Shown here: positions 7,801 to 34,223 of the stretch, piece by piece
Numbering within the stretch: position 1 is the first letter of the stretch
Layout of the letters: every line of letters begins with the position of its first letter
Assembly (NCBI RefSeq): GCF_000024405.1
Contig: NC_013517.1
Location: 62,001 to 126,000 of the forward strand
Reading direction: 5' to 3'
Length of the DNA stretch: 64,000 nt
From: Sebaldella termitidis ATCC 33386
GTDB taxonomy: Bacteria; Fusobacteriota; Fusobacteriia; Fusobacteriales; Leptotrichiaceae
The notes under the pieces: model-generated
Seen by the model: only the letters and a program-made list of their open reading frames with translations
Databases searched by the model: none
Told to the model about the DNA's origin: nothing
Program-made: the position numbers and the translations under genes

Positions 7801-10079
7801 AAAAAGATAATGAAAAAATTTCAAAGAAAGAATTAGAATACAATACAGCTAAAATTTTAGAAGCTCTTAGTGACGGGATAAGAGATATTTTTAAGAATAT
7901 AAATCCAAAAGATTTCAGAGGAAGTCTTGCAAATAATATTGACTCTCTCTTTGAGAAACAATTTAATGTCTTGTTAGATGAAAAGAATCCATACAATAGC
8001 TATAAATCTGTAATTGAAGAAAAAATGAAAGAAGCTTTTGAGGGATATCAAGTAACTGGAGATTATGTATTAGACCAATCTGAATACAATAAAAGATTTG
8101 AAGAATTTTTAGACAGGCTAATTGGCACAGGTAATGAGGGGCTTATTAATTTAGCAGGTTCTATGAAAATGGAAAGAGTAAAAACAAGTTTAGATGATTT
8201 GGCTTCTACTTTAAGCCGTGCGGGAAGTGTATTGAAAGATGATTTTTTGACAAATTTATCTGTTACAGCAGAATCTCTTTCAGGTCTGACAAGTATATTC
8301 CAGAATACAAATTTAGCCGGACCAATAGGGGAAAAGATAGGTGGTTTAGGGAACTTTTTATCGCCGTTTACTTCAGTAGTAGGAACAGTTTTTGGAACAG
8401 TAAATGCCGGAGTTTCTTTGTTTCGTTCGTTTGGTATAGGAAGTAATAAAAATAAGAAACATAATGAAGAAGAAAAAAGAAAAGCTAATGAATGGTATGA
8501 AAATAAATCAAAAGAAAATGAGAATTTATTTAGTGAAATAAATACACTTACTAATTCTATACAAAACCTTACAACCAAGTTAATTCAAAATATAGCTTCT
8601 GATACCTCAGATAAGAATATTGCAAAGCAAAAAAGTTATTACAATACATTAATTGGAAAAACAGGAGATCTTTATGAAGGTCAAATAACTGCAACAGGAC
8701 ATTCAAGTAAAAAGAAAGGTCTTTTTGGTGGAAAAAAGAATTCTCACGCTACTTTAAGTCAGGGATTTGATGAATATTTTGGAAGTGTATGGAAAAATAC
8801 AGCAAGAGATTCAGGAAGTTTGCAAAGTTTTTATGATACTTACCTTCAAAACTTCGATTTGAATACTTTAAAGAGAAAGTTAGGAAAAAGTAAGCTTGAT
8901 AATAATAACATAGAAGAAGTGAAACTAAGTTTTTTACGTTTTATTGAAGATGTAAGAGTAATGGAGCAGTATTCTTTAAATTTGCCTAAAAATGGGATAC
9001 TTGAAAGTTTTGAAGGAGTGGAAGTAGCTGATTTATTTGAACTCAGAAATGAATATCAAAAACAGCTTGAGGATATTTATAAAGGGATGGGAAAAGATCC
9101 TGAAAAATATAGAGATGAGATATTAAGCACGGTAAATTCATTAATACAAAATGATCAGGTGATAGTAAGTGCTTTTCAGGATGTTAAATCAAGAACAATA
9201 GAACAATTAAGCAGCGGAAATGACGTGATTTTAGGTCTTGCAACAGGAATGGAAAGTTATTTTAGTAAATTGGAAAGTAATTTTTCAAAAGTATTTTATG
9301 ATATGAAGTTTCAGGGATTTGAAGAGAAATTTTCTAATAAATTTGAAAATTTGACAAATAACCTTGCAGATTTTAGATTATCAGGGAGAAAAGACTTTGA
9401 TAATTTTCTAAATGAGAATCTTAATTTCTGGGATTTATTTACTGATTTAAAAAATACTGAGTATATAGAAAACGATATGAAACACATAATTGATACTTTA
9501 AAAAATCAAGCCCAAGCCTCAGGGTTAAGTGATGAAGTGATAAATGCAATGTTTCCGGATGAGAAAATAAATGAAAAGACAGAGAAAATAAAAAATGTAT
9601 TAGAAAACTCAATAAGAAAAGCTCTGGAAACAAATTCATTTGAACAGTTTTCGATGAGCTTAGGAGAGAGTATTTATAATAATGTAAAGGATAGTCTGGT
9701 TAAAGCATTTTATGAAAGTCAGTCGTTTCAGACACTTGCAGATAAATATTTCCTGACTGAAGATTATAAAAATGCACTTGACGGAGCGGGAAGTTTTAAA
9801 GATGCTTACAGCATAATACAACAGAAGTTAAATGAAGTAGAGTTAAAATTACAGTCAGAAGGAATGGATTTTAGGGGAACAAATGCAGTAGATGGTAATT
9901 ATTATGGAATGTCCGGAAAACAAGAGTATAAGACTTCAGGAATACTTGATAATTCAAAAGGAGTAGAATTCGCAGTAACATTAAATAATTATGGTTTTAT
10001 GTCAAATTCAGAATTTATGAATACTTTAAAAAAGGAAATGAAAGAATTCTTGTATGAATCAGGTAAAGAAGAAGTTTAA
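4875..10079 (+). CDS. phage tail tape measure protein
   Basis: A 1734-residue protein, by far the longest in the prophage region. It is almost wholly helical and charged, with long coiled coils at about 680-1000 (many E/K heptads) and 1030-1110. A Gly/Ala/Phe-rich hydrophobic segment (about 1135-1190, including GPIGEKIGGLGNFLSPF) matches the membrane-active or inner part typical of tape measure proteins. It starts at an ATG behind GAGGAGG. The length of this protein sets the tail length; at roughly 0.15 nm per residue that would suggest a tail in the 250-nm range, which is a rule-of-thumb estimate. It lies directly after the chaperone frameshift pair and before the tail tip genes, the standard order. 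No lysozyme or peptidase motif was recognised. Confidence 0.85.
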   Translation: MATFKEVKGSYNKGLGYIKKGEKYALKGDELQKLEYKLEKRYGEFTAQMIKWSEEKSKELNRPYTEILEYSLVYANYLDMKGYDPKEIKELIKNQTELKIKIINDKGYNPTDVDGLIKGLYDQKIESLNFFGIDEKEFQKMLKKDGIIEVNLNITSDLNEKYNTFSNKTSLTNENQILDSRINRELRPYLDGFNEIYVPLKSWINSGISSAELNNEISRIEENIKNIYPYISKLKDDVIEFDSFKQQEDSNPDLAMISNKKYQEIIIKYPFLENKLLNNSDSSGLWVKNWANLESTLKEAAEQSLKDKWYDTNLLKIGKERDYILNATERNRETRSKNFHKLYQYPIEDIIKDSDVILAARDYNDLERTEKEYNKPKELKKIIDVLIKNETFKRKFGSYNEWDGNPLKQYENELLNTIAEDVAIFVKNQDSDNYEISRIMEKTDDELRTLKNGYENYNPLSEYGKYIKEEFSPKFSEQMNILKERLASAVKPVEEFDSNMKVKFDTLMKDDVIRQDLENYKKSQKISDYEKLKKDLNQRYGLADPKGGGPMPAAYLYDVYDKNFDQIQTAIKNITEYAGQSIQKNSTMHIKAFESSVKTSSEQRYKMEERKVNGKTYYIPVKKNDIPMSEAEKNLMKLTQSYNNVQRGMGKNPAAPIQKTATQTVKVQRKVQQPQRTVTYREPTKWEVMSKELKKAVKDLESKAGKMGDVILKTSDKLAKLELEKLHNFSDVMGMSESDVLFSEIGILEKQRQIALEVGKKEKVESLTAEIKEKKKKAENAKFYDDINGSYEQKTNQLNFKPSDEQYDDFKEKFAGYYDGKMENLTRLLVNGLITKNQFEKNSLDLIEEKIQRLIEMKKYDEAVKLTIEKYQAEYTKIQEDAQKDLINIREKGEVFGYRKSEIINQELEREKKLRSDSYEKNKQTEEILNKELENLNEKLEKAIKNNDKNEMKRIREEIDDKKKEKEELGTEEKAKKDNEKISKKELEYNTAKILEALSDGIRDIFKNINPKDFRGSLANNIDSLFEKQFNVLLDEKNPYNSYKSVIEEKMKEAFEGYQVTGDYVLDQSEYNKRFEEFLDRLIGTGNEGLINLAGSMKMERVKTSLDDLASTLSRAGSVLKDDFLTNLSVTAESLSGLTSIFQNTNLAGPIGEKIGGLGNFLSPFTSVVGTVFGTVNAGVSLFRSFGIGSNKNKKHNEEEKRKANEWYENKSKENENLFSEINTLTNSIQNLTTKLIQNIASDTSDKNIAKQKSYYNTLIGKTGDLYEGQITATGHSSKKKGLFGGKKNSHATLSQGFDEYFGSVWKNTARDSGSLQSFYDTYLQNFDLNTLKRKLGKSKLDNNNIEEVKLSFLRFIEDVRVMEQYSLNLPKNGILESFEGVEVADLFELRNEYQKQLEDIYKGMGKDPEKYRDEILSTVNSLIQNDQVIVSAFQDVKSRTIEQLSSGNDVILGLATGMESYFSKLESNFSKVFYDMKFQGFEEKFSNKFENLTNNLADFRLSGRKDFDNFLNENLNFWDLFTDLKNTEYIENDMKHIIDTLKNQAQASGLSDEVINAMFPDEKINEKTEKIKNVLENSIRKALETNSFEQFSMSLGESIYNNVKDSLVKAFYESQSFQTLADKYFLTEDYKNALDGAGSFKDAYSIIQQKLNEVELKLQSEGMDFRGTNAVDGNYYGMSGKQEYKTSGILDNSKGVEFAVTLNNYGFMSNSEFMNTLKKEMKEFLYESGKEEV

Positions 10080-22958: not shown

Positions 22959-23032
22959 TGAAATAGTGTAAATAAAATGCAGAGCAGAATGTAGTTATAC
23001 AGTTGAAAACACATACATTAAAAAAACAAATT

Positions 23033-23096
23033 AAAAAAGCCGTCGGCATGAACCGACGGCAGGGGGTTATGAAGAAAAATATTCTTTTATTGGTAT
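23033..23096 (-). ncRNA. repeated csRNA-like small RNA, copy 1
   Basis: Transcript of about 64 nt inferred from TATAAT (23108-23103) to the T-run after the hairpin (GCCGTCGG 23039-23046 with CCGACGGC 23053-23060, perfect 8 bp, then six U). The middle holds a small AAGAA/TTCTT hairpin and CUUCAUAACCCCCU, complementary to a ribosome-binding site plus AUG. It is one of seven copies. The 5' end is estimated. Confidence 0.75.
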
Positions 23097-23102
23097 GTAG
23101 TA

Positions 23103-23157
23103 ATTATAAAAAAATATACTTAGAAATTTCTTATTTAAAACTTTTTATAGCCTTAGA
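23103..23157 (-). promoter_or_regulatory. sRNA copy 1 promoter with four phased AAG hexamers
   Basis: Minus strand: TCTAAG, AAAAAG, AATAAG, TCTAAG (proximal at 23124-23119), each separated by exactly 5 bp, then 10 bp, then TATAAT (23108-23103). No TTGACA-like -35 box exists, which suggests activation by a response regulator. Confidence 0.7.
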
Positions 23158-23251
23158 ATATTTATCTAAAGATTAGTTATTTCTTTTAGAGGTACATTAT
23201 TAAAGGGATTGACTATAGATTTTTTTTAGATTTTAAATTAGTTAAGTTAAT

Positions 23252-23319
23252 AAAAAAACCGCCGGTTATAAAACCGACGGCAAGGGGGTTATGAAGAAAA
23301 ATATTCTTTTTATTGGTAT
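23252..23319 (-). ncRNA. repeated csRNA-like small RNA, copy 2
   Basis: Same layout as copy 1. The terminator hairpin is the least regular (CCGCCGGT 23259-23266 with ACCGACGG 23273-23280, one mismatch) but is followed by seven U. The anti-ribosome-binding-site segment CUUCAUAACCCCCUU is intact. Confidence 0.7.
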
Positions 23320-23325
23320 GTGTTA

Positions 23326-23369
23326 ATTATAGGAAATACAGCTTAGAATACTCTTTTTTAGAACTTAGA
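23326..23369 (-). promoter_or_regulatory. sRNA copy 2 promoter with three phased AAG hexamers
   Basis: TCTAAG (23369-23364), AAAAAG (23358-23353), TCTAAG (23347-23342), N5 between each, N10, TATAAT (23331-23326). Confidence 0.7.
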
Positions 23370-23532
23370 TTTATATTTCAGATGAAAAAAATCCAAGGAA
23401 ACTAAAATAAAAATGCCGGATACATAGATATTTAACCGCTCCTGTTGAATATAAAAAAATGTCAAAGAATTTGTATAACATAAATGTTTTTTAAAATTTT
23501 TAAAAGTTCCTGAAATCTTGGGATGATGAAAT

Positions 23533-23601
23533 AAAAAAAGCCGCCGATGTTAAGTCGGCGGCAAAGGGGGTTATGAAGAAAAATATTCTTTTTATTGGTA
23601 T
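23533..23601 (-). ncRNA. repeated csRNA-like small RNA, copy 3
   Basis: The terminator stem is GCCGCCGA (23540-23547) with TCGGCGGC (23555-23562), then seven U. Compared with copy 1 both sides of two base pairs have changed together, evidence that the hairpin is under selection as RNA. The anti-ribosome-binding-site segment is intact. Confidence 0.75.
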
Positions 23602-23607
23602 GTGTTA

Positions 23608-23651
23608 ATTATACGTAATACAACTTAGAATATTCTTTTTTGATACTTAGT
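23608..23651 (-). promoter_or_regulatory. sRNA copy 3 promoter with three phased AAG hexamers
   Basis: AACTAAG-type distal box (23651-23646), AAAAAG (23640-23635), TCTAAG (23629-23624), N5 spacing, N10, TATAAT (23613-23608). Confidence 0.7.
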
Positions 23652-23860
23652 TTTATATTTCATATTTGTCATTTTTTTATATAATAATTCCATATAAACA
23701 TGGAAAATAAATAATTACGGCAGAATGGCGAAAATAGAAATAAAATCAGAATGTTTAATAATAAAGATTTATATTATAAAAAAATATAATTTTTTTTGTT
23801 TTAATATTAAATAATATCATCAAAAATAATATGTATACTTATCAATCGGAATTTTAAAAA

Positions 23861-23927
23861 AATAAAAGCCGTCGGTGTGAAGCCGACGGCAAGGGGGTTA
23901 TGAAGAAAAATATTCTTTTATTGGTAT
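23861..23927 (-). ncRNA. repeated csRNA-like small RNA, copy 4
   Basis: Stem GCCGTCGG (23868-23875) with CCGACGGC (23883-23890), perfect 8 bp, then UUUUAUU. Identical core to the other copies. It is the first sRNA downstream of the YkvI-type transporter gene in the minus direction. Confidence 0.75.
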
Positions 23928-23933
23928 GTGTTA

Positions 23934-23988
23934 ATTATACGCAAAACATCTTAGAATATTCTTAATTGATTCTTTTTATAATCTTAGA
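23934..23988 (-). promoter_or_regulatory. sRNA copy 4 promoter with four phased AAG hexamers
   Basis: TCTAAG, AAAAAG, ATTAAG, TCTAAG (proximal 23955-23950), all separated by exactly 5 bp; then N10 and TATAAT (23939-23934). This is the clearest array of the set. Confidence 0.75.
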
Positions 23989-24100
23989 AAAAACAATTAA
24001 ATAAAATTAAATGTTTTAAATTTTCAAGAGATTTTTATTTTTTATGTTTAAATTAATAAATTTAGACATTTTATTATAATAAAATTCTTTATTTAATATA

Positions 24101-25204
24101 TTAAGATACTTTTTTGATCTCGACTGACGGGACTTCCTTTTTCTTTAGCTGTGTTTTGAGGATACAAAGCATTAAAATAATACCGAAGTAGCCGGAAATC
24201 GGATAAAGAGAATTTACCAGGGCTGAGAAAGAAAATTGTCCGCCGATAAATGCTATAATAGTTAAAATTAATGCAAGAATTTTGAATTTTTTGTCTTTCT
24301 CATCGGAAACAAGCCTGTTACAGCTGAGCCAGAGCATAGGAACAGCTGTAGTATAAATTCCGGCGAATAAAATAACAGAAAATAGGATGCCTATTGCCGG
24401 AAACATCTTATCAGCAATAAAAAGTGAAGGTACATCTTTATTATATAAATCCCCTATACTTGCCATAAGTCCGTAGGCCATAACCATAACAGCCGCGGCA
24501 AATGCAAATCCCCCTATAAAACCGCCGGTTTTTGCTTCTTTTTTGCTTCCGGCTTCTTTTCCCAGCTGAGCCAGAAATGGAGCCAGCATAATACATCCCA
24601 TGGCAGGAAATATTATTCCGGAAATCAGCCAGTTTGAAGCAGCTTTGGTTACCTTTATAGAAGCCATTGTTTCATTAGCTTTGGCAAGACCTGACGGATT
24701 CATTACAATATTTCCTATTCCTACAATAACAGCAAAAATAATAATAGCAGGACCGATTTTTGATACGATGCTGACCAGTCCGTCCAGACCTAAAATGACT
24801 GTGCCAAGAGCCAGAACAGCCATAATAATTCTTCCTGTCTGCGGATTCAAACCATAGTATTCATTGAGTGTAGCACCGGCACCGGCGATCATAACAGAGA
24901 ATACCAGAAACAGAAAAATCGGAGTAAAAATTTCAAAAAATTTACCAAGATATCTGCCGCAGTAATAGGTAAAAATTTTATTTGCAGAATCAAGCTGCAG
25001 TCTTCGCCCGTCTTCCATAATAACCGAGCTGAACCAGATATATAAAAGCAGTGTAATTATAACAGCACCAAAACAGCCGGCAGGACCATAGGCAGTAAAA
25101 AACTGCATGGCTTCCTGACCGGATGCAAAGCCGGAACCAATCAGATATGCTACAATTGCCCCGGCAAAGGTGAAAACTTTACTCCAGCGGAATAACTCAT
25201 TCAT
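24101..25204 (-). CDS. YkvI-type membrane transporter (LeuT-fold)
   Basis: A 367-residue, very hydrophobic protein with about ten membrane segments. The first helix carries IGSGFASGQEAMQFF (about 22-36), the broken-helix motif that defines the YkvI family of putative amino-acid/organic-cation transporters of LeuT fold. The hydrophilic C-terminus (KKKEVPSVEIKK) is cytoplasmic. GGAGG precedes the ATG. It follows the opine-dehydrogenase gene by 247 bp in the same direction; that gap has a CTGTACT/AGTACAG hairpin (25345-25362). A shared role in uptake of an opine or its amino acid is inferred from adjacency. Confidence 0.75.
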   Translation of the reverse strand: MNELFRWSKVFTFAGAIVAYLIGSGFASGQEAMQFFTAYGPAGCFGAVIITLLLYIWFSSVIMEDGRRLQLDSANKIFTYYCGRYLGKFFEIFTPIFLFLVFSVMIAGAGATLNEYYGLNPQTGRIIMAVLALGTVILGLDGLVSIVSKIGPAIIIFAVIVGIGNIVMNPSGLAKANETMASIKVTKAASNWLISGIIFPAMGCIMLAPFLAQLGKEAGSKKEAKTGGFIGGFAFAAAVMVMAYGLMASIGDLYNKDVPSLFIADKMFPAIGILFSVILFAGIYTTAVPMLWLSCNRLVSDEKDKKFKILALILTIIAFIGGQFSFSALVNSLYPISGYFGIILMLCILKTQLKKKEVPSVEIKKVS

Positions 25205-25451
25205 TAAAATACCTCCAGGATTTATAAAAAACTTTTTCCGGTAAAACCGGTATTTGAGAGAAGAATATTTTTGTAAAAAAGAGTCAGGGAAAAATAAATA
25301 TTATTAAGAAGTTTCTATTTATGTTTTCCCGGCTCTGAAATAATCTGTACTTTTTAGTACAGGAAAATGCAATTTTTGATTTGAATATTATCTGTTATAT
25401 GAATATAAATTAAGCAGTATTTTCATAAAATACTCAGTTTTAGTGAGAAAA

Positions 25452-26537
25452 CTATTTTTTTCCGGTTTTTACATATTTTTTTATGCTTTCCAGATCCATG
25501 CCTTCAAGCCCGAGATCCTTTACAGTAGAGCCTCTTTCTCTCCAGTCGGTTTCGTGTATTATATTATAAAGACTGATTACTGCATCAATAGTAGGTGTGG
25601 GAATACCTATGGCCTTCCCCAGACTGCTCCATGGAACCAGACCGAAAGGGGCATCTTCAGTAAGATAACGGTTATTTATATCATTTGGTCCTGAAATAGG
25701 AGTAAGTGAAATAGCTCCGTGTGTAGCCCTGTAAAGCTCTTCCCATGTGTAGCCTTCGTTTAGACCGCTGAAATCCTCGATAGGAGTAAGGTGATAACCA
25801 AGCTGTTTTCCTACGGCTTTTCTTTCATTATCCAGAACAATATCTATTTTCGCAGCTGAAGGTGTAAATCCGTGCTCATACAGATAGAAGTCCACATGCG
25901 GTGATTCTATATTACTTATATTTAAAAGGCACGGACCTGAATGCAGTGCGGGATTCACAATTCCCAAGCCGCATTCCAGAACATCAGTGTAAATTTTTTC
26001 AAAAGGAAACAAATCTTCCCTCAGCATATCAATAAGCTCTGCTCCTTTTTCAGCCGGCAGGAATGCAATATTTATTTTGTTTCTTCCAAAAAGAGTTACT
26101 TTACACGGTGAAGTCAGTCTTGCATCATAAGGCAGATTATTGGCATCGGCAATAACCGGACAGCTGTCGCTGCCAAGTATATTTTTGAATATTAATGCGG
26201 CAAATGCACCGGGAAAAACTACAATAATCTGATTCTCGACTACATTTCCTTTTAAAAGTTCCGCATAGCCTTTATGGGCAAAGGCAGGGGTTACCACAAG
26301 AATATAGTCAGCTCCGTCTACGGCTTTTTTGATGTCATCTGTGACCATATCTACTTTGACTTTTTCTTTCATTATACCAGAAACTTCTATAGTCTGTGTA
26401 TTAAATAACTGTGTAACATTCTCCTTAAATTCCGGCATTTCATACATACGAACTTCATGTCCTTTTACTTTCATATCGACAGCCATCATATGACTTCCGT
26501 TTCCTCCGCCTAAAATTGCGATTTTTTTCTTTTTCAT
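25452..26537 (-). CDS. opine/octopine-family NAD(P)-dependent dehydrogenase
   Basis: A 361-residue protein with N-terminal Rossmann fold IAILGGGNGSHMMAVDMKVKGHEV (residues 6-29) and the C-terminal opine-dehydrogenase domain containing HSGPCLLNISNIE (about 217-229) with the conserved His, and ISGPNDINNRYLTEDAPFG (about 280-298). These enzymes reversibly couple an amino acid to an oxo acid by reductive amination. Substrates cannot be read from the sequence. Neighbours: a YkvI-type transporter downstream and a two-component system with ANTAR domains upstream, in the same direction. Confidence 0.8.
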   Translation of the reverse strand: MKKKKIAILGGGNGSHMMAVDMKVKGHEVRMYEMPEFKENVTQLFNTQTIEVSGIMKEKVKVDMVTDDIKKAVDGADYILVVTPAFAHKGYAELLKGNVVENQIIVVFPGAFAALIFKNILGSDSCPVIADANNLPYDARLTSPCKVTLFGRNKINIAFLPAEKGAELIDMLREDLFPFEKIYTDVLECGLGIVNPALHSGPCLLNISNIESPHVDFYLYEHGFTPSAAKIDIVLDNERKAVGKQLGYHLTPIEDFSGLNEGYTWEELYRATHGAISLTPISGPNDINNRYLTEDAPFGLVPWSSLGKAIGIPTPTIDAVISLYNIIHETDWRERGSTVKDLGLEGMDLESIKKYVKTGKK

Positions 26538-26651
26538 ACGGGTCTCTCCTTTATTTATAATATTTTAACCGTGTTTATGACGGTTTAAAGAATTCCAAAA
26601 ATAATTTTTTGTTATTTTTCAAACATTCATAGTTTTCTTTTTCAAAAATAA

Positions 26652-26711
26652 AAAAGGCAGAATAAAATGCCATATCCTGATTAGGGGATATGAGCGGCTA
26701 TTCTGCCTTTT
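26652..26711 (-). terminator. compound terminator between kinase and opine dehydrogenase genes
   Basis: The outer stem AAAAGGCAGAATA (26652-26664) with TATTCTGCCTTTT (26699-26711) encloses a CATATCC/GGATATG hairpin. The minus-strand transcript then reads TTTTTTATTTTT. The nested structure is more elaborate than a plain terminator and could be an antitermination target. Confidence 0.85.
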
Positions 26712-26735
26712 TTAAAATACTCTGTTGTATTTTAG

Positions 26736-28148
26736 CTATTTAATTTTAATGCTGAATTCTGTGACAGTTCCGGATTTACTGGAATGAATCCGGATTTTTC
26801 CGTTAAGTTTATCTTTTACAATGGCTTTTACTATATTCAGTCCAAGTGATTCAAAATTAGTCTTTTGTTGAAAACCGTCTCCGTCATCGGTAATTGTAAA
26901 TATTGCAAAAACTTCTTCATTGGAAATTCTAATATTGATATTACCTGACTTTTTGGTGCGGAAGCCGTGCTCCAGTGAATTGCTGAGCAGTTCATTTATT
27001 ACAAGCATAACACTTGATGCGGTATCGGCATTTACCAGAACAGTATCACCGGTTGTGGCAATTTTTATATTTCTGGTGTCTGAGGAAGAGTAATTCAGTA
27101 TAGCAGAGCTTAGCTTCTGTATAAGCTGTTTTATATCAATATCCTCGAATCCCTGTTCTGCAAGTATCTCATGAACAGCTGCAATACTGTCAATATACGA
27201 AACATTTTCGTTCAGGATCTTTTTCATATTAGAATCGTCGATCCGGCGTGCCTGCATGGAAAGTATACTGGCTATGGTCTGAAGATTATTTTTTACACGG
27301 TGGTGGATTTCTTTTACTGCCACTGACTTCAGAATAAGCTCTTTTTCTTTGTTTCTCATTTCTGAAATATCGGTAATGATCATTACAGTACAGTTATTTC
27401 CGGCAATATTAAGGCATACATATCTTATTTTTAAGGTAAAATCACCGATTGATATTTCGTTCTCAAAGCCGTTTCTGTCTTCGTTCAGCTGACAATAGTG
27501 GTTTTTATTAAGAATAAGATTTTTCATATGAATTTTTTGAATATTTTCAATATAACCAAGATTTTTATACAGTGTTCTTGCCTCGGGATTAGCGTACACA
27601 ACCTGTCCGTTATGATCAAAAATAATTACAGACTGATTAATATGCTCTGTCAGTATTTCAGGGTTATTTTTCAGATATTCCAGATTATCACGGAGTTTTT
27701 TCTGAGTCTGCTCCAGAAGCTTTATCTGCTTATTCTTATTTACCTGCTTGGTAACATCATGCTCGCTTACAAGCACACCAATAATTTTTCCTGTGGAATT
27801 AGGAATAGGAGCAACAGTTTCATAAACGGATTTTTTGTCCTGTGTAAAGGCTTTCAGCTTTTTTGAAGTAATTCCTGTTTTTAAAGTTCTGATAACAGCC
27901 GGTTCGGTTTCCCTGCCTACAATAACTCCCAATACTGAATTTTTAAACAATGTAGGACTGTCAACAGGTCTTTGCTGGTAAACAACAACAGCATAATCAC
28001 TGTTAGGGATAAGGCAGTCTATAAAAAGATCGGTATCTGTGAATTCTGCAAAGACAGAGAGCTTTTTAGCGTAATCTTCAAGCTCGGCAATATCACTGTC
28101 ATCAAGGTCTGTATATTTTTTACATAATTCCCTCAGAATAAAAAACAC
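26736..28148 (-). CDS. sensor histidine kinase, EutW-like (HisKA_2)
   Basis: 470 residues, GTG start immediately after the response-regulator stop (TAG-GTG). Domains: H_kinase_N-type sensor (about 10-150, with FIDCLIPNSDYAVVV), PAS (about 170-265), HisKA_2 with HHRVKNNLQTIASILSMQ (about 283-300; the phospho-accepting His is in this motif), and HATPase with NELLSNSLEHGF (N-box), TDDGDGF and LGLNIV. No membrane segment, so it senses a soluble ligand. Kinases of this class pair with ANTAR antiterminators, as EutW does with EutV in ethanolamine use. The ligand here is unknown; the adjacent opine genes are candidates for the regulon. Confidence 0.9.
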   Translation of the reverse strand: MFFILRELCKKYTDLDDSDIAELEDYAKKLSVFAEFTDTDLFIDCLIPNSDYAVVVYQQRPVDSPTLFKNSVLGVIVGRETEPAVIRTLKTGITSKKLKAFTQDKKSVYETVAPIPNSTGKIIGVLVSEHDVTKQVNKNKQIKLLEQTQKKLRDNLEYLKNNPEILTEHINQSVIIFDHNGQVVYANPEARTLYKNLGYIENIQKIHMKNLILNKNHYCQLNEDRNGFENEISIGDFTLKIRYVCLNIAGNNCTVMIITDISEMRNKEKELILKSVAVKEIHHRVKNNLQTIASILSMQARRIDDSNMKKILNENVSYIDSIAAVHEILAEQGFEDIDIKQLIQKLSSAILNYSSSDTRNIKIATTGDTVLVNADTASSVMLVINELLSNSLEHGFRTKKSGNINIRISNEEVFAIFTITDDGDGFQQKTNFESLGLNIVKAIVKDKLNGKIRIHSSKSGTVTEFSIKIK

Positions 28149-28877
28149 CTACTTTCCTGCATTATTTAATATTTCAGCTGCCGCTTCAGAGAGTGAAAGT
28201 TTCTTTTCGCTGCTTAGCCGTTTTATGCGCAGATAGGCGGCCTGTTCTGATAGTTCATACTTTTTCATCAGGTAAACCTTGGCTTTTTCGGTAAAAGCCT
28301 TTGCAGAATCCTGACTCAGGATAGATTCGGCAATTTTTGCCATGGAGCATCTTTTGTCCATACTCAGCTTTCTCAGTTTTTCATAAGCTTCCTTTTCGGA
28401 AATATCTGAGGAAGATGCCAGTAAATATTTGGCTCTTTCTATTATTTTAGCATTTTTGGTATCTTCTTCCATTTTAGTCATTTTATTTTTCATACTTCTG
28501 ATTTCAAGACTTTTGGCAAGAGCCATCTCTACTGCGGGTATAAGAACTTTTTCCCTTACGGGCTTTATCAGATAATTCATAACACCGGCATGTTTTGCCT
28601 TTTTGAAAAATTCCTTGTCATTATAAGCAGAAACAAGAATAACACAGTCTGAAAGTCCCTCGGAAAGAATAACTTCAGCAGCACTGAGACCGTCGAATAC
28701 AGACATCTTTATATCCATGATAACAAGATCAGGCTTTTCACGCCTGCATAATTCCACTGCATCAAAGCCGTCGGCTGCTTCCCCGGCAACGAAGTAGCCG
28801 TTTAATGTGAGTATTTCTCTGAAATCCATGCGGATTACAGGCTCATCATCAACTATAACTATGCGGTTTTTCCCCAT
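28149..28877 (-). CDS. response regulator with two tandem ANTAR RNA-binding domains
   Basis: 242 residues from the ATG at 28877, behind AAAGGAG; an upstream in-frame start lacks a ribosome-binding site. The receiver domain (1-120) has IVIVDDE, the phospho-acceptor in VIMDIKM, VSAYND and YLIKPV. Two ANTAR domains follow: about 137-185 (IIERAKYLLASSSDISEKEAYEKL..) and about 190-240 (FTEKAKVYLMKKYELSEQAAYLRI..). EutV-type proteins have one ANTAR domain and dimerise to bind paired hairpins; two in one chain is unusual. Its transcript has a long leader with two hairpins and a terminator. Confidence 0.9.
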   Translation of the reverse strand: MGKNRIVIVDDEPVIRMDFREILTLNGYFVAGEAADGFDAVELCRREKPDLVIMDIKMSVFDGLSAAEVILSEGLSDCVILVSAYNDKEFFKKAKHAGVMNYLIKPVREKVLIPAVEMALAKSLEIRSMKNKMTKMEEDTKNAKIIERAKYLLASSSDISEKEAYEKLRKLSMDKRCSMAKIAESILSQDSAKAFTEKAKVYLMKKYELSEQAAYLRIKRLSSEKKLSLSEAAAEILNNAGK

Positions 28878-28904: not shown

Positions 28905-28994
28905 AAAAAAATAGCGTGCCAATCACAGCATGATAAAAAAATCATACTTTCCAGCAAGCTATTTCGACTGCTAAAACAGACTCTATTGTCTGTT
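28905..28994 (-). promoter_or_regulatory. two-hairpin plus terminator leader, candidate ANTAR antitermination site
   Basis: In the transcript: hairpin P1 (28994-28975), stem AACAGAC/GTCTGTT with six-base loop AATAGA; 2 nt; hairpin P2 (28972-28953), 7-position stem AGCAGTC/GCTTGCT with one mismatch and six-base loop GAAATA; then a terminator AAATAGC (28964-28958) with GCTATTT (28915-28909) and U7. P2 and the terminator share bases and exclude each other. The architecture is that of ANTAR substrates, but the loops lack the published A1/G4 pattern. Confidence 0.55.
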
Positions 28995-29075
28995 TATTAT
29001 ATAAAGTTAATAAAAAAAACATATTTAGGCATAATTTATGATCCAAATAAGCCTTAAGTACTATTTAGTATTTTG

Positions 29076-31596: not shown

Positions 31597-32865
31597 CTAC
31601 TTTATTGGCGGTGTTCCTTCTGCGTTTCCTAAAATTGCATCAATTTGAATTAAAGCATTTTTTTGTAAAGCTGATACACCGACTATTCTTCTTGCAGGAG
31701 TACCGTTTGGATAGAATTTTGCATAAATTTCATTTACAGCTTCTATATCCTCAATGTTTTTAAGGAATATATTTATTTTTACTGTATCTTCCAGAACATG
31801 ATCGACACTTTCTACAATTGCCTTGATATTTTTTAAACACTGCTCTGTCTGCTCTTTGATTCCGCCTGCTACTATTTCATTAGTTTTGGGATCAACAGGC
31901 AGCTGAGCTGAGATATTGTTATAATGAGAAAAAGCAACTGTTTGTGTAGATAAAGAACATTTTGGCGCATTTTCTGTATTATTTGCCTCTATAATGAGTC
32001 CGTGTCTGTCTTCAATAGCCTGTGGAGGCGTACCGTCTCCGTGTGATACCACTGCTTCGATTTGTACTAAAGCTCCCATAGGCAGATCCGAAACTGCGAC
32101 TACTGTTCTTGCAGGTACATAAGCTACAGCTCTGGCAATTGATGAATCCGGAAAGAAAGTAGAATAAACTTCATTTACAGCTTCAAGGTCTGAAAAATCT
32201 TTAAGGAATACTGTAATTTTTACGATATCATCAAAAGGAACATCGATACTTTCTAAAATTGCCTTAATATTCTTTAAACACTGTCTCGCCTGCTCGGTAA
32301 TGCCTCCAATTACCAGTCTGCCAGTTTTTGGATCAATAGGCAGCTGAGCTGAAATATTATTATAATGAGAAAAAGCAACTGTTTGTGTAGAGAGAGAACT
32401 CATTGGTGCATTTTCTGTGTTATTTGTAAGTTTTATAAGGTCTCCTGCCTGCGGTGCACCCGGAATTGTACCTTCACCGTTTGAAACAAGTGCTTCAATC
32501 TGCACTAAAGCATTCATAGGTAAGGCATCAACCGCTACTATTGTCTGTGTAGGCAGATAGCTTGAAAAAAATGTTTTATAAACCTCGTTTACAGCGTCAA
32601 CATCCTTGATATTTTTAACAAATACAGTGATTCTAACAATATCATTCATAACATGGTCAATGCTGTCAACAATTGCCTCGATATTTTTAAAGCATTGTTC
32701 TGCCTGCTCTTTGATTCCGCCTGCTACTAATTTACCAGATTTCGGGTCAACAGGTAGTTGGGCTGAAAGGTTGTTATAGTGAGAAAAAGCAACTGTTTGT
32801 GAATATAGAGAATTTATTGGTGCTTTTTCCGTGTTTCTTGCTAATACTGCGTTATTATTACTCAT
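31597..32865 (-). CDS. triple-domain RidA (YjgF) fusion protein
   Basis: 422 residues from the ATG at 32865 (AGAGGAG upstream). Three complete RidA/YjgF domains follow one another at about 1-138, 145-285 and 292-422, each containing 'SQTVAFSHYNN.SAQLPxDP', 'GGIxEQxxQCxKNIxAI' and 'NALVQIxAI' type blocks. RidA normally is a 120-130-residue homotrimer that hydrolyses 2-iminoacids from PLP enzymes, with sites at subunit interfaces. Here the three subunits are one chain. The arginine that holds the substrate carboxylate is present in domains 2 (PARTVVAV) and 3 (PARRIVGV) but replaced in domain 1 (PTQTIVAV). Single gene with terminator. Confidence 0.9.
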   Translation of the reverse strand: MSNNNAVLARNTEKAPINSLYSQTVAFSHYNNLSAQLPVDPKSGKLVAGGIKEQAEQCFKNIEAIVDSIDHVMNDIVRITVFVKNIKDVDAVNEVYKTFFSSYLPTQTIVAVDALPMNALVQIEALVSNGEGTIPGAPQAGDLIKLTNNTENAPMSSLSTQTVAFSHYNNISAQLPIDPKTGRLVIGGITEQARQCLKNIKAILESIDVPFDDIVKITVFLKDFSDLEAVNEVYSTFFPDSSIARAVAYVPARTVVAVSDLPMGALVQIEAVVSHGDGTPPQAIEDRHGLIIEANNTENAPKCSLSTQTVAFSHYNNISAQLPVDPKTNEIVAGGIKEQTEQCLKNIKAIVESVDHVLEDTVKINIFLKNIEDIEAVNEIYAKFYPNGTPARRIVGVSALQKNALIQIDAILGNAEGTPPIK

Positions 32866-33195
32866 AATATTACTCCTCTTTTCTTTCAAATATTGGTTTT
32901 TGTCAGCATTTCCACATAGAAACTGCTATAGTGACATGACTACTTTCAGTCTACAGTAATAATATACACTAAGTATTATTTAATATATAATATCACTACT
33001 TCGATAAATTATAATTCATTAAATGAAAAAAATCAATAAAAATATAAAATATTAAAAAAATTACTGATGTAGTTTCCGGATAAAAATTAATTTATGACTG
33101 TTCACGACATTTTTTCTCCCATATTCAAAACAAAGAAATTTCTGATCTAAATATGATAAAATAATACTATAAAAATATATTCTAAGGTGAGAAAA

Positions 33196-34106: not shown

Positions 34107-34173
34107 AAAAAGCCGTCAGTATGAGAACCGACGGCAAGGGGGTTATGAAGAAAAATATTCTTTTTATTGGTAT
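34107..34173 (-). ncRNA. repeated csRNA-like small RNA, copy 7
   Basis: Stem GCCGTC (34112-34117) with GACGGC (34130-34135), slightly shortened, then five U. The anti-ribosome-binding-site segment is intact. Confidence 0.7.
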
Positions 34174-34179
34174 GTGTTA

Positions 34180-34223
34180 ATTATAGTTATATATGATTAG
34201 AATAATCTTTTTTTCTTCTTATT
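34180..34223 (-). promoter_or_regulatory. sRNA copy 7 promoter with three phased hexamers
   Basis: AATAAG (34223-34218), AAAAAG (34212-34207), TCTAAT (34201-34196), N5 between them, N10, TATAAT (34185-34180). Confidence 0.65.

Follow-up and report, generated by a model that had tools for sequence, protein, structure and literature searches.

Antitermination at dual hexaloops is the mode of action of the ANTAR proteins AmiR and NasR. For EutV, the structure with RNA revealed how a loop is read: the G at loop position 4 (G4) is stacked on Y164 and held by bonds from R142, K149 and E160, the opposite chain adds contacts to the loop through K143 and K147, and the substitutions M172A and N173A/R175A/R177A each abolish RNA binding (Walshe et al. 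2022, PMC8934654). On the basis of this structure, each hexaloop was argued to take up one ANTAR dimer, and a dual hexaloop two. The hairpins seen in the crystal belong to different RNA molecules, and support for the 2:1 model is indirect (PMC8934654). The EutV work raises the question of how a pair of ANTAR domains divides one or two hexaloops between its members, and the "two ANTAR domains" of that paper (PMC8934654) are the two subunits of a dimer, not a tandem in one chain. The related regulator Rv1626 is described there as monomeric (PMC8934654). Known ANTAR RNAs have been described with A1 and G4 (PMC3369931; PMC8164766), with a conservation of A1/G4 of only >50% in actinobacterial ANTAR RNAs (PMC8164766).

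The window analysed here (the whole stretch of DNA, 64 kb, both strands) encodes a response regulator whose receiver is followed by two ANTAR domains, D1 and D2 (Table 1). Its open reading frame runs on the minus strand from an ATG at 28877-28875 to a stop codon ending at 28149, and by sequence all residues of the receiver phosphorylation pocket are there (D10, D11, D55, S83, K105). As isolated peptides, D1 reached 56.7 bits (E 2e-15) and D2 38.4 bits (E 1.1e-9) against Pfam ANTAR (PF03861), each above the curated cut-off of 27.3 bits, and a six-frame ANTAR search of the whole genome returned them as two separate hits with the boundaries listed in Table 1. An AlphaFold model of the monomer, built with 20 sequences and numbered from protein residue 2, has a mean pLDDT of 90.7 and a pTM of 0.60, so that the relative placement of its domains is uncertain. 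The solved structure closest to aa 1-190 of the model is EutV, both free (Z 24.0, 3.0 A) and RNA-bound (Z 23.7, 2.5 A). A long helix (H108-155) occupies the coiled-coil position, and over model residues 178-206 the last helix of D1 continues as the first of D2. Folded alone, D2 adopts a three-helix fold (mean pLDDT 92.6) whose top PDB neighbours are all known ANTAR proteins, namely Rv1626 (0.8 A over 49 columns), EutV, AmiR, PAL and NasR, with Foldseek E-values that are individually weak (0.04-0.9) for this query of 53 residues.

Table 1. Features of the double-ANTAR locus, in window coordinates
Feature	Position	Strand	Basis
Response regulator, receiver plus two ANTAR domains, 242 aa	28149..28877	-	Pfam, ORF, genome ANTAR search
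Receiver domain, aa 6-116	28530..28862	-	Pfam Response_reg, 86.5 bits
ANTAR domain 1 (D1), aa 136-187	28317..28472	-	Pfam, whole-genome ANTAR search, residue alignment
ANTAR domain 2 (D2), aa 196-237	28167..28292	-	Pfam, whole-genome ANTAR search, alignment, models
Sensor kinase: GAF_PdtaS, PAS, HisKA_2, HATPase (EutW/PdtaS type)	26736..28148	-	Pfam
Octopine/nopaline-dehydrogenase-family gene, presumed regulated gene	25452..26537	-	Pfam Octopine_DH, 147 bits
Membrane protein	24101..25204	-	ORF; no Pfam or NCBIfam hit
P1 hairpin taaaatac-AACAGA-gtatttta, loop position 4 = A	26713..26734	-	Scan, fold; identical in G001
P2 hairpin ggc-AGAATA-gcc, loop position 4 = A	26696..26707	-	Scan, fold
Intrinsic terminator (5' strand GGCAGAATA / TATTCTGCC plus U-run) of the dehydrogenase leader, overlaps P2	26651..26713	-	Sequence, fold
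P1-like hairpin aaacagac-AATAGA-gtctgttt in the regulator's own leader	28974..28995	-	Scan, fold
Possible P2-like hairpin agc-AGTCGAAATA-gct, 10-base loop, not a hexaloop	28957..28972	-	Truncated-leader fold; weak
Terminator in the regulator's leader	28905..28964	-	Fold; pairing kept in G001 with changed bases

A preliminary description of this gene, with these same coordinates, had proposed two tandem ANTAR domains after the receiver, both keeping the conserved alanines and aromatic residue of ANTAR helices. This picture is borne out, as both domains exceed the Pfam cut-off and D2 folds as ANTAR, and A148, A163, Y164 and A182 (EutV numbering) are present in both domains of the window protein; the D2 of one double-ANTAR family member has V at position 148. 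The regulator of a relative of the same genus (G001) has the same tandem and is 91% identical to the window protein. Between these two, dN/dS is 0.077 for D2 and 0.071 for the linker plus D1; the two values are close, so that D2 is not decaying, and it is under purifying selection. The tandem is therefore real and selected rather than a product of chance.

Searches for such regulators, as proposed in the preliminary description, brought their number to five of the same layout, with the order receiver-D1-D2 in all five: two from Sebaldella-type genomes (the window genome and G001) and three from Bacillota (G098, G393 and G505). The tandem occurs in 2 of 98 Fusobacteriota genomes, which are the two Sebaldella-type ones, and the other full-score ANTAR regulators in these 98 genomes are single-domain proteins with open frames of ~192-209 aa. 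A two-row D1-D2 profile recovered the doubles of G098 and G393 and a four-row profile that of G505, giving doubles in 2 of 398 genomes of the phylum of G098 and in 2 of 391 of the class of G105 (overlapping sets). Profile searches returned no double in 297 Desulfobacterota genomes, and no double ANTAR was found in a plasmid collection. A contig scan found single-ANTAR neighbours only; one of their genomes, when searched whole, carried a double. D1-D2 is free of internal indels in the four doubles aligned, and a GAF_PdtaS/HisKA_2 kinase gene follows the regulator in 4/4 doubles checked (window, G001, G393, G505), the contig of G098 being too short to enter this count.

A single branch separates the five doubles from all others in a tree of 58 receiver+D1 sequences (95/86; 93% of bootstrap trees), and 0 of 500 shuffles clustered them as tightly. 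This single branch implies that the tandem arose once among these proteins, followed by cross-phylum spread or wide loss. Among the genomes sampled, double-ANTAR regulators are rare and form one clade. A literature search that was thin on subscription journals turned up no description of tandem ANTAR domains in one chain, and earlier notice of them, for example in Pfam architecture lists or in Figure 1 of PMC3369931, is possible.

To compare the RNA-contact residues, the five D1 and five D2 domains were aligned with 73 distinct single-ANTAR domains. Position 172 is Met in 71/73 singles and 5/5 D1, and in 0/5 D2, where it is A, S, T, K and K. R175 is found in 66/73 singles, 4/5 D1 and 0/5 D2, and R142 in 72/73 singles and 1/5 D1. 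K149, E160, A163 and Y164 are near-invariant in singles, D1 and D2, with a single Arg at position 149 in D1 as the exception; the loop-facing K149, E160 and Y164 survive in 5/5 D2 across two phyla. In the window protein, D1 keeps K149, E160, Y164, R168, M172 and R175 and has Ala in place of R142; D2 keeps A148, K149, E160, A163 and Y164 and has Ser and Lys in place of M172 and R175. With respect to the EutV RNA-contact set (R142, K149, E160, Y164, M172, R175), D1 thus lacks R142 only and D2 lacks M172 and R175. The preliminary description had staked its reading of the second segment on an ANTAR score and on RNA-contact residues; the score holds, and the key contacts M172 and R175 are absent. 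The one double-ANTAR D1 with R142 is that of G505, and the loss of R142 tracks the family imperfectly. The residues are thus unequally divided between the domains: D1 has the methionine plug but mostly not the G4-contacting arginine, and D2 has the stacking tyrosine without the plug.

The kinase gene begins immediately past the stop codon of the regulator and is separated by 198 bp from the dehydrogenase gene. In this gap, read on the coding strand, P1 is followed after 5 nt by P2 and by a terminator that overlaps P2. The leader (26651-26734, minus strand) thereby has the features of an EutV-type target, a dual hexaloop with P2 overlapping an intrinsic terminator, and the dual-hairpin target implied by the preliminary description is present as an adjacent dual hexaloop (26696-26734, minus strand). 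The full leader folds as P1 plus terminator (-34.7 kcal/mol), and the leader cut before the 3' strand of the terminator folds as P1 plus P2; in these folds P2 and the terminator are predicted to be mutually exclusive, as in ANTAR leaders. The P1-P2-terminator block is nearly identical in G001, and the surrounding non-coding DNA is less conserved. Scanned on both strands, the window holds exactly one dual hexaloop with overlapping terminator, the one in this gap, and 40 dinucleotide shuffles of the window gave none by the same criteria, which were fixed for the scan and had been settled after the first motif was seen. Relative to the canonical target with A1 and G4, both window loops keep A1 and have A at position 4 (A4), and the P2 loop AGAATA departs from the AAYAGR pattern. 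No Rfam family matched the window at the gathering threshold.

The leader of the regulator gene itself carries a P1 with an 8-bp stem and the loop AATAGA (AACAGA in G001). Because its P2 loop has 10 bases, this leader is only a probable target. The genome contains 11 copies of the P1 core ACAAYAGAGT, of which only those in the two leaders of this locus have an 8-bp stem; one further copy has a 6-bp stem and looks coding on inspection. A third leader, in the gap between the dehydrogenase and the transporter (25205-25451, minus strand), was rejected as a target, as no conserved dual hexaloop is found there. Its hairpin CTGTAC-TAAAAA-GTACAG is present in the window genome and absent in G001, and a long imperfect terminator-like stem with a U-run in the window genome has lost the U-run in G001.

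The four genes regulator, kinase, dehydrogenase and membrane protein stand in the same order in G001. The membrane protein is presumably a YkvI-like transporter, and one might guess from the opine-dehydrogenase family that the metabolite concerned is an amino-acid conjugate. In G001 the transporter gene reads as a pair of ORFs of 117 and 241 aa that lie in different frames (L026:12243-13345), through either a frameshift or an assembly error. Elsewhere in the window, a 430-aa ORF (31597-32889, minus strand) contains three tandem RidA/Ribonuc_L-PSP domains. Four tandem units at 23027-23989 (minus strand), spaced 222-327 bp, each consist of a TATAAT-like box, a near-constant core of ~40 nt ending in ACCCCC and a GC-rich terminator, and match Rfam RF02846 Ref84 below threshold (43.5 bits; gathering 52). 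The units look like an array of small RNA genes, and a further identical core lies at 34138-34180 (minus strand).

Loop position 4 was compared between regulator types in a scan that fixed the P1 closing pair and the P2 inner stem and imposed no rule on any loop base. Near single-ANTAR regulators the scan located 38 distinct dual hexaloops, each with an overlapping terminator, and all of their P1 loops (38/38) and P2 loops (38/38) have G at position 4. In the four dual hexaloops near doubles (window, G001 and two in the G098 locus) position 4 is A in 8/8 loops (Fisher 9e-6 by leader; 1.3e-3 when two lineages are counted), and the linkers between their hairpins are 2-5 nt. The sites in G098, a Bacillota MAG, have the loops AATAGG/AATAGG and AATAGG/AATAAG with terminators; one precedes an operon of a DHDPS-family gene, an FAD oxidoreductase and a TRAP transporter, the other a gene that we take to encode an FGGY-type kinase, and these two are the only A4-pattern matches in that genome. 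A tight A4 pattern matched 10 of 391 clostridial genomes. Among these, only G098 has a terminator together with P1 and P2 stems of 6-8 and 5 bp, respectively; P1 stems are shorter in the other nine, where several matches look like coding sequence. The short contigs of G393 and G505 yielded no A4 site, and a looser A4 pattern gave just short chance stems there among the matches that could be checked. The visible targets represent only two independent lineages. The eut leader of the window genome (L027, about 9200-9290) has a canonical P2 (GAGC-AAAGGA-GCTC) and a P1 loop, ATATAG, without G4; it falls outside the 38, since its P1 closing pair is G-C and not C-G. A changed loop specificity in the double-ANTAR family is supported by the association in two lineages.

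The sequence gives good support to the view that the protein is a response regulator that works by antitermination at the dehydrogenase leader. We further propose, with a probability of about 0.58, that it is a variant two-component antiterminator of the EutVW type in which D2 is a tethered partner of D1 and the module reads A4 loops. The kinase would phosphorylate the receiver, the regulator would dimerise via receiver and coiled coil, and the ANTAR module would bind the dual hexaloop in the kinase-dehydrogenase leader. Bound P2 would stay folded, the overlapping terminator could not form, and the dehydrogenase, possibly with the transporter, would be switched on; the regulator's own leader would be a second, weaker site. 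D1, with its methionine plug, would be the main loop reader, and D2 most likely replaces the second ANTAR domain that a normal dimer supplies to one hexaloop. A built-in partner of this kind is favoured because in the EutV crystal one hexaloop is fully read by one ANTAR and touched by its neighbour, and D1 and D2 match these two unequal roles. One phosphorylated dimer, with four ANTAR domains, could then hold both P1 and P2, and the family would read A4 instead of G4 hexaloops in step with the loss of the G4-contacting R142 from D1. The suggested role of D2 draws on residue patterns and leans on a debated reading of the EutV crystal; the cause of the G4-to-A4 change is likewise inferred.

The preliminary description offered a different division of labour, in which a monomer spans the dual hairpin with D1 and D2 on one loop each and dimerisation is unneeded. 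D2 does keep A148, K149, E160, A163 and the base-stacking Y164, and dual hexaloops with short linkers of 2-5 nt do exist at double-ANTAR loci. However, the picture of two equal readers is doubtful, because all five D2 lack the methionine that is obligatory for RNA binding in EutV (M172A abolishes it; PMC8934654), and R175 is gone from all five as well. With the methionine missing in every member, one hairpin for each domain becomes less likely. The receiver, the kinase and the long helix at the coiled-coil position, all retained, would also be superfluous without a dimer. The premise of one domain per hairpin in a dimer is itself dated, as the 2022 structure argues against it and against one two-ANTAR unit on both hairpins (PMC8934654), and we regard the monomer as improbable. 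Alternatively, D2 may no longer touch RNA and could be a degenerate repeat that serves packing, dimerisation or autoinhibition, with D1 dimers acting as in EutV. The same losses at M172 and R175 in 5/5 D2 and the low identity between D2 and its own D1 (23-29%) would fit this, and in NasR a neighbouring domain is known to autoinhibit ANTAR (PMC7496416). Yet K149, E160 and Y164 are kept in 5/5 D2 across two phyla, D2 is under purifying selection, and a drift of Y164 and E160 would be expected if the fold alone mattered, which makes a D2 without RNA contact rather unlikely.

A4 could be a neutral change in an ordinary ANTAR element, or unrelated to the regulator, with the tandem a mere duplication; G4 is indeed not universal, given the conservation of only >50% in actinobacterial ANTAR RNAs (PMC8164766). 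In the relevant relatives, however, G4 stands in 76/76 loops against A4 in 8/8 at double-ANTAR loci from two phyla, and of the 10 pattern-matching clostridial genomes out of 391 the only one with P1 of 6-8 bp, P2 of 5 bp and a terminator is the double-ANTAR genome G098. This reading seems improbable.

A tentative extension, which we hold to be somewhat less probable than an even chance, is that tandem-ANTAR regulators form a separate, horizontally spread class with an A4 code, in which a covalent ANTAR pair serves each loop, one dimer suffices where EutV would need two, and the system is insulated from single-ANTAR systems of the same cell. If it is causal, the G4-to-A4 change would amount to a natural code of specificity in ANTAR-RNA recognition, of which none is described in the accessible literature. 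It would also let a cell run two ANTAR systems side by side (the window genome also has a canonical EutV), and searches that demand G4 would miss A4 regulons. Two covalent, unequal ANTAR domains with a matching natural RNA make the sharing of hexaloops testable by mutations in one domain.

All components of the regulator are of known kinds, and the tandem makes it a variant of the EutV type rather than a plain EutV. With EutV/EutW of Enterococcus faecalis (PDB 6WSH, 6WW6), the closest solved structure, it shares the receiver, the coiled-coil helix, ANTAR, the adjacent kinase gene and a dual hexaloop in which P2 overlaps an intrinsic terminator. Unlike EutV, it has a second ANTAR domain, A4 loops and a D1 without R142, and it lies outside a eut operon in a genome with a separate single-ANTAR EutV. 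PdtaR (Rv1626)/PdtaS of Mycobacterium tuberculosis resembles it in the receiver-ANTAR arrangement (the second-best PDB sequence match) and in the GAF_PdtaS/HisKA_2 kinase, whereas PdtaR has one ANTAR domain. AmiR and NasR share the three-helix ANTAR fold, which the D2 model matches in both; they differ in that AmiR lacks a functional receiver/kinase pair, NasR has a NIT sensor, and each carries one ANTAR domain per chain.
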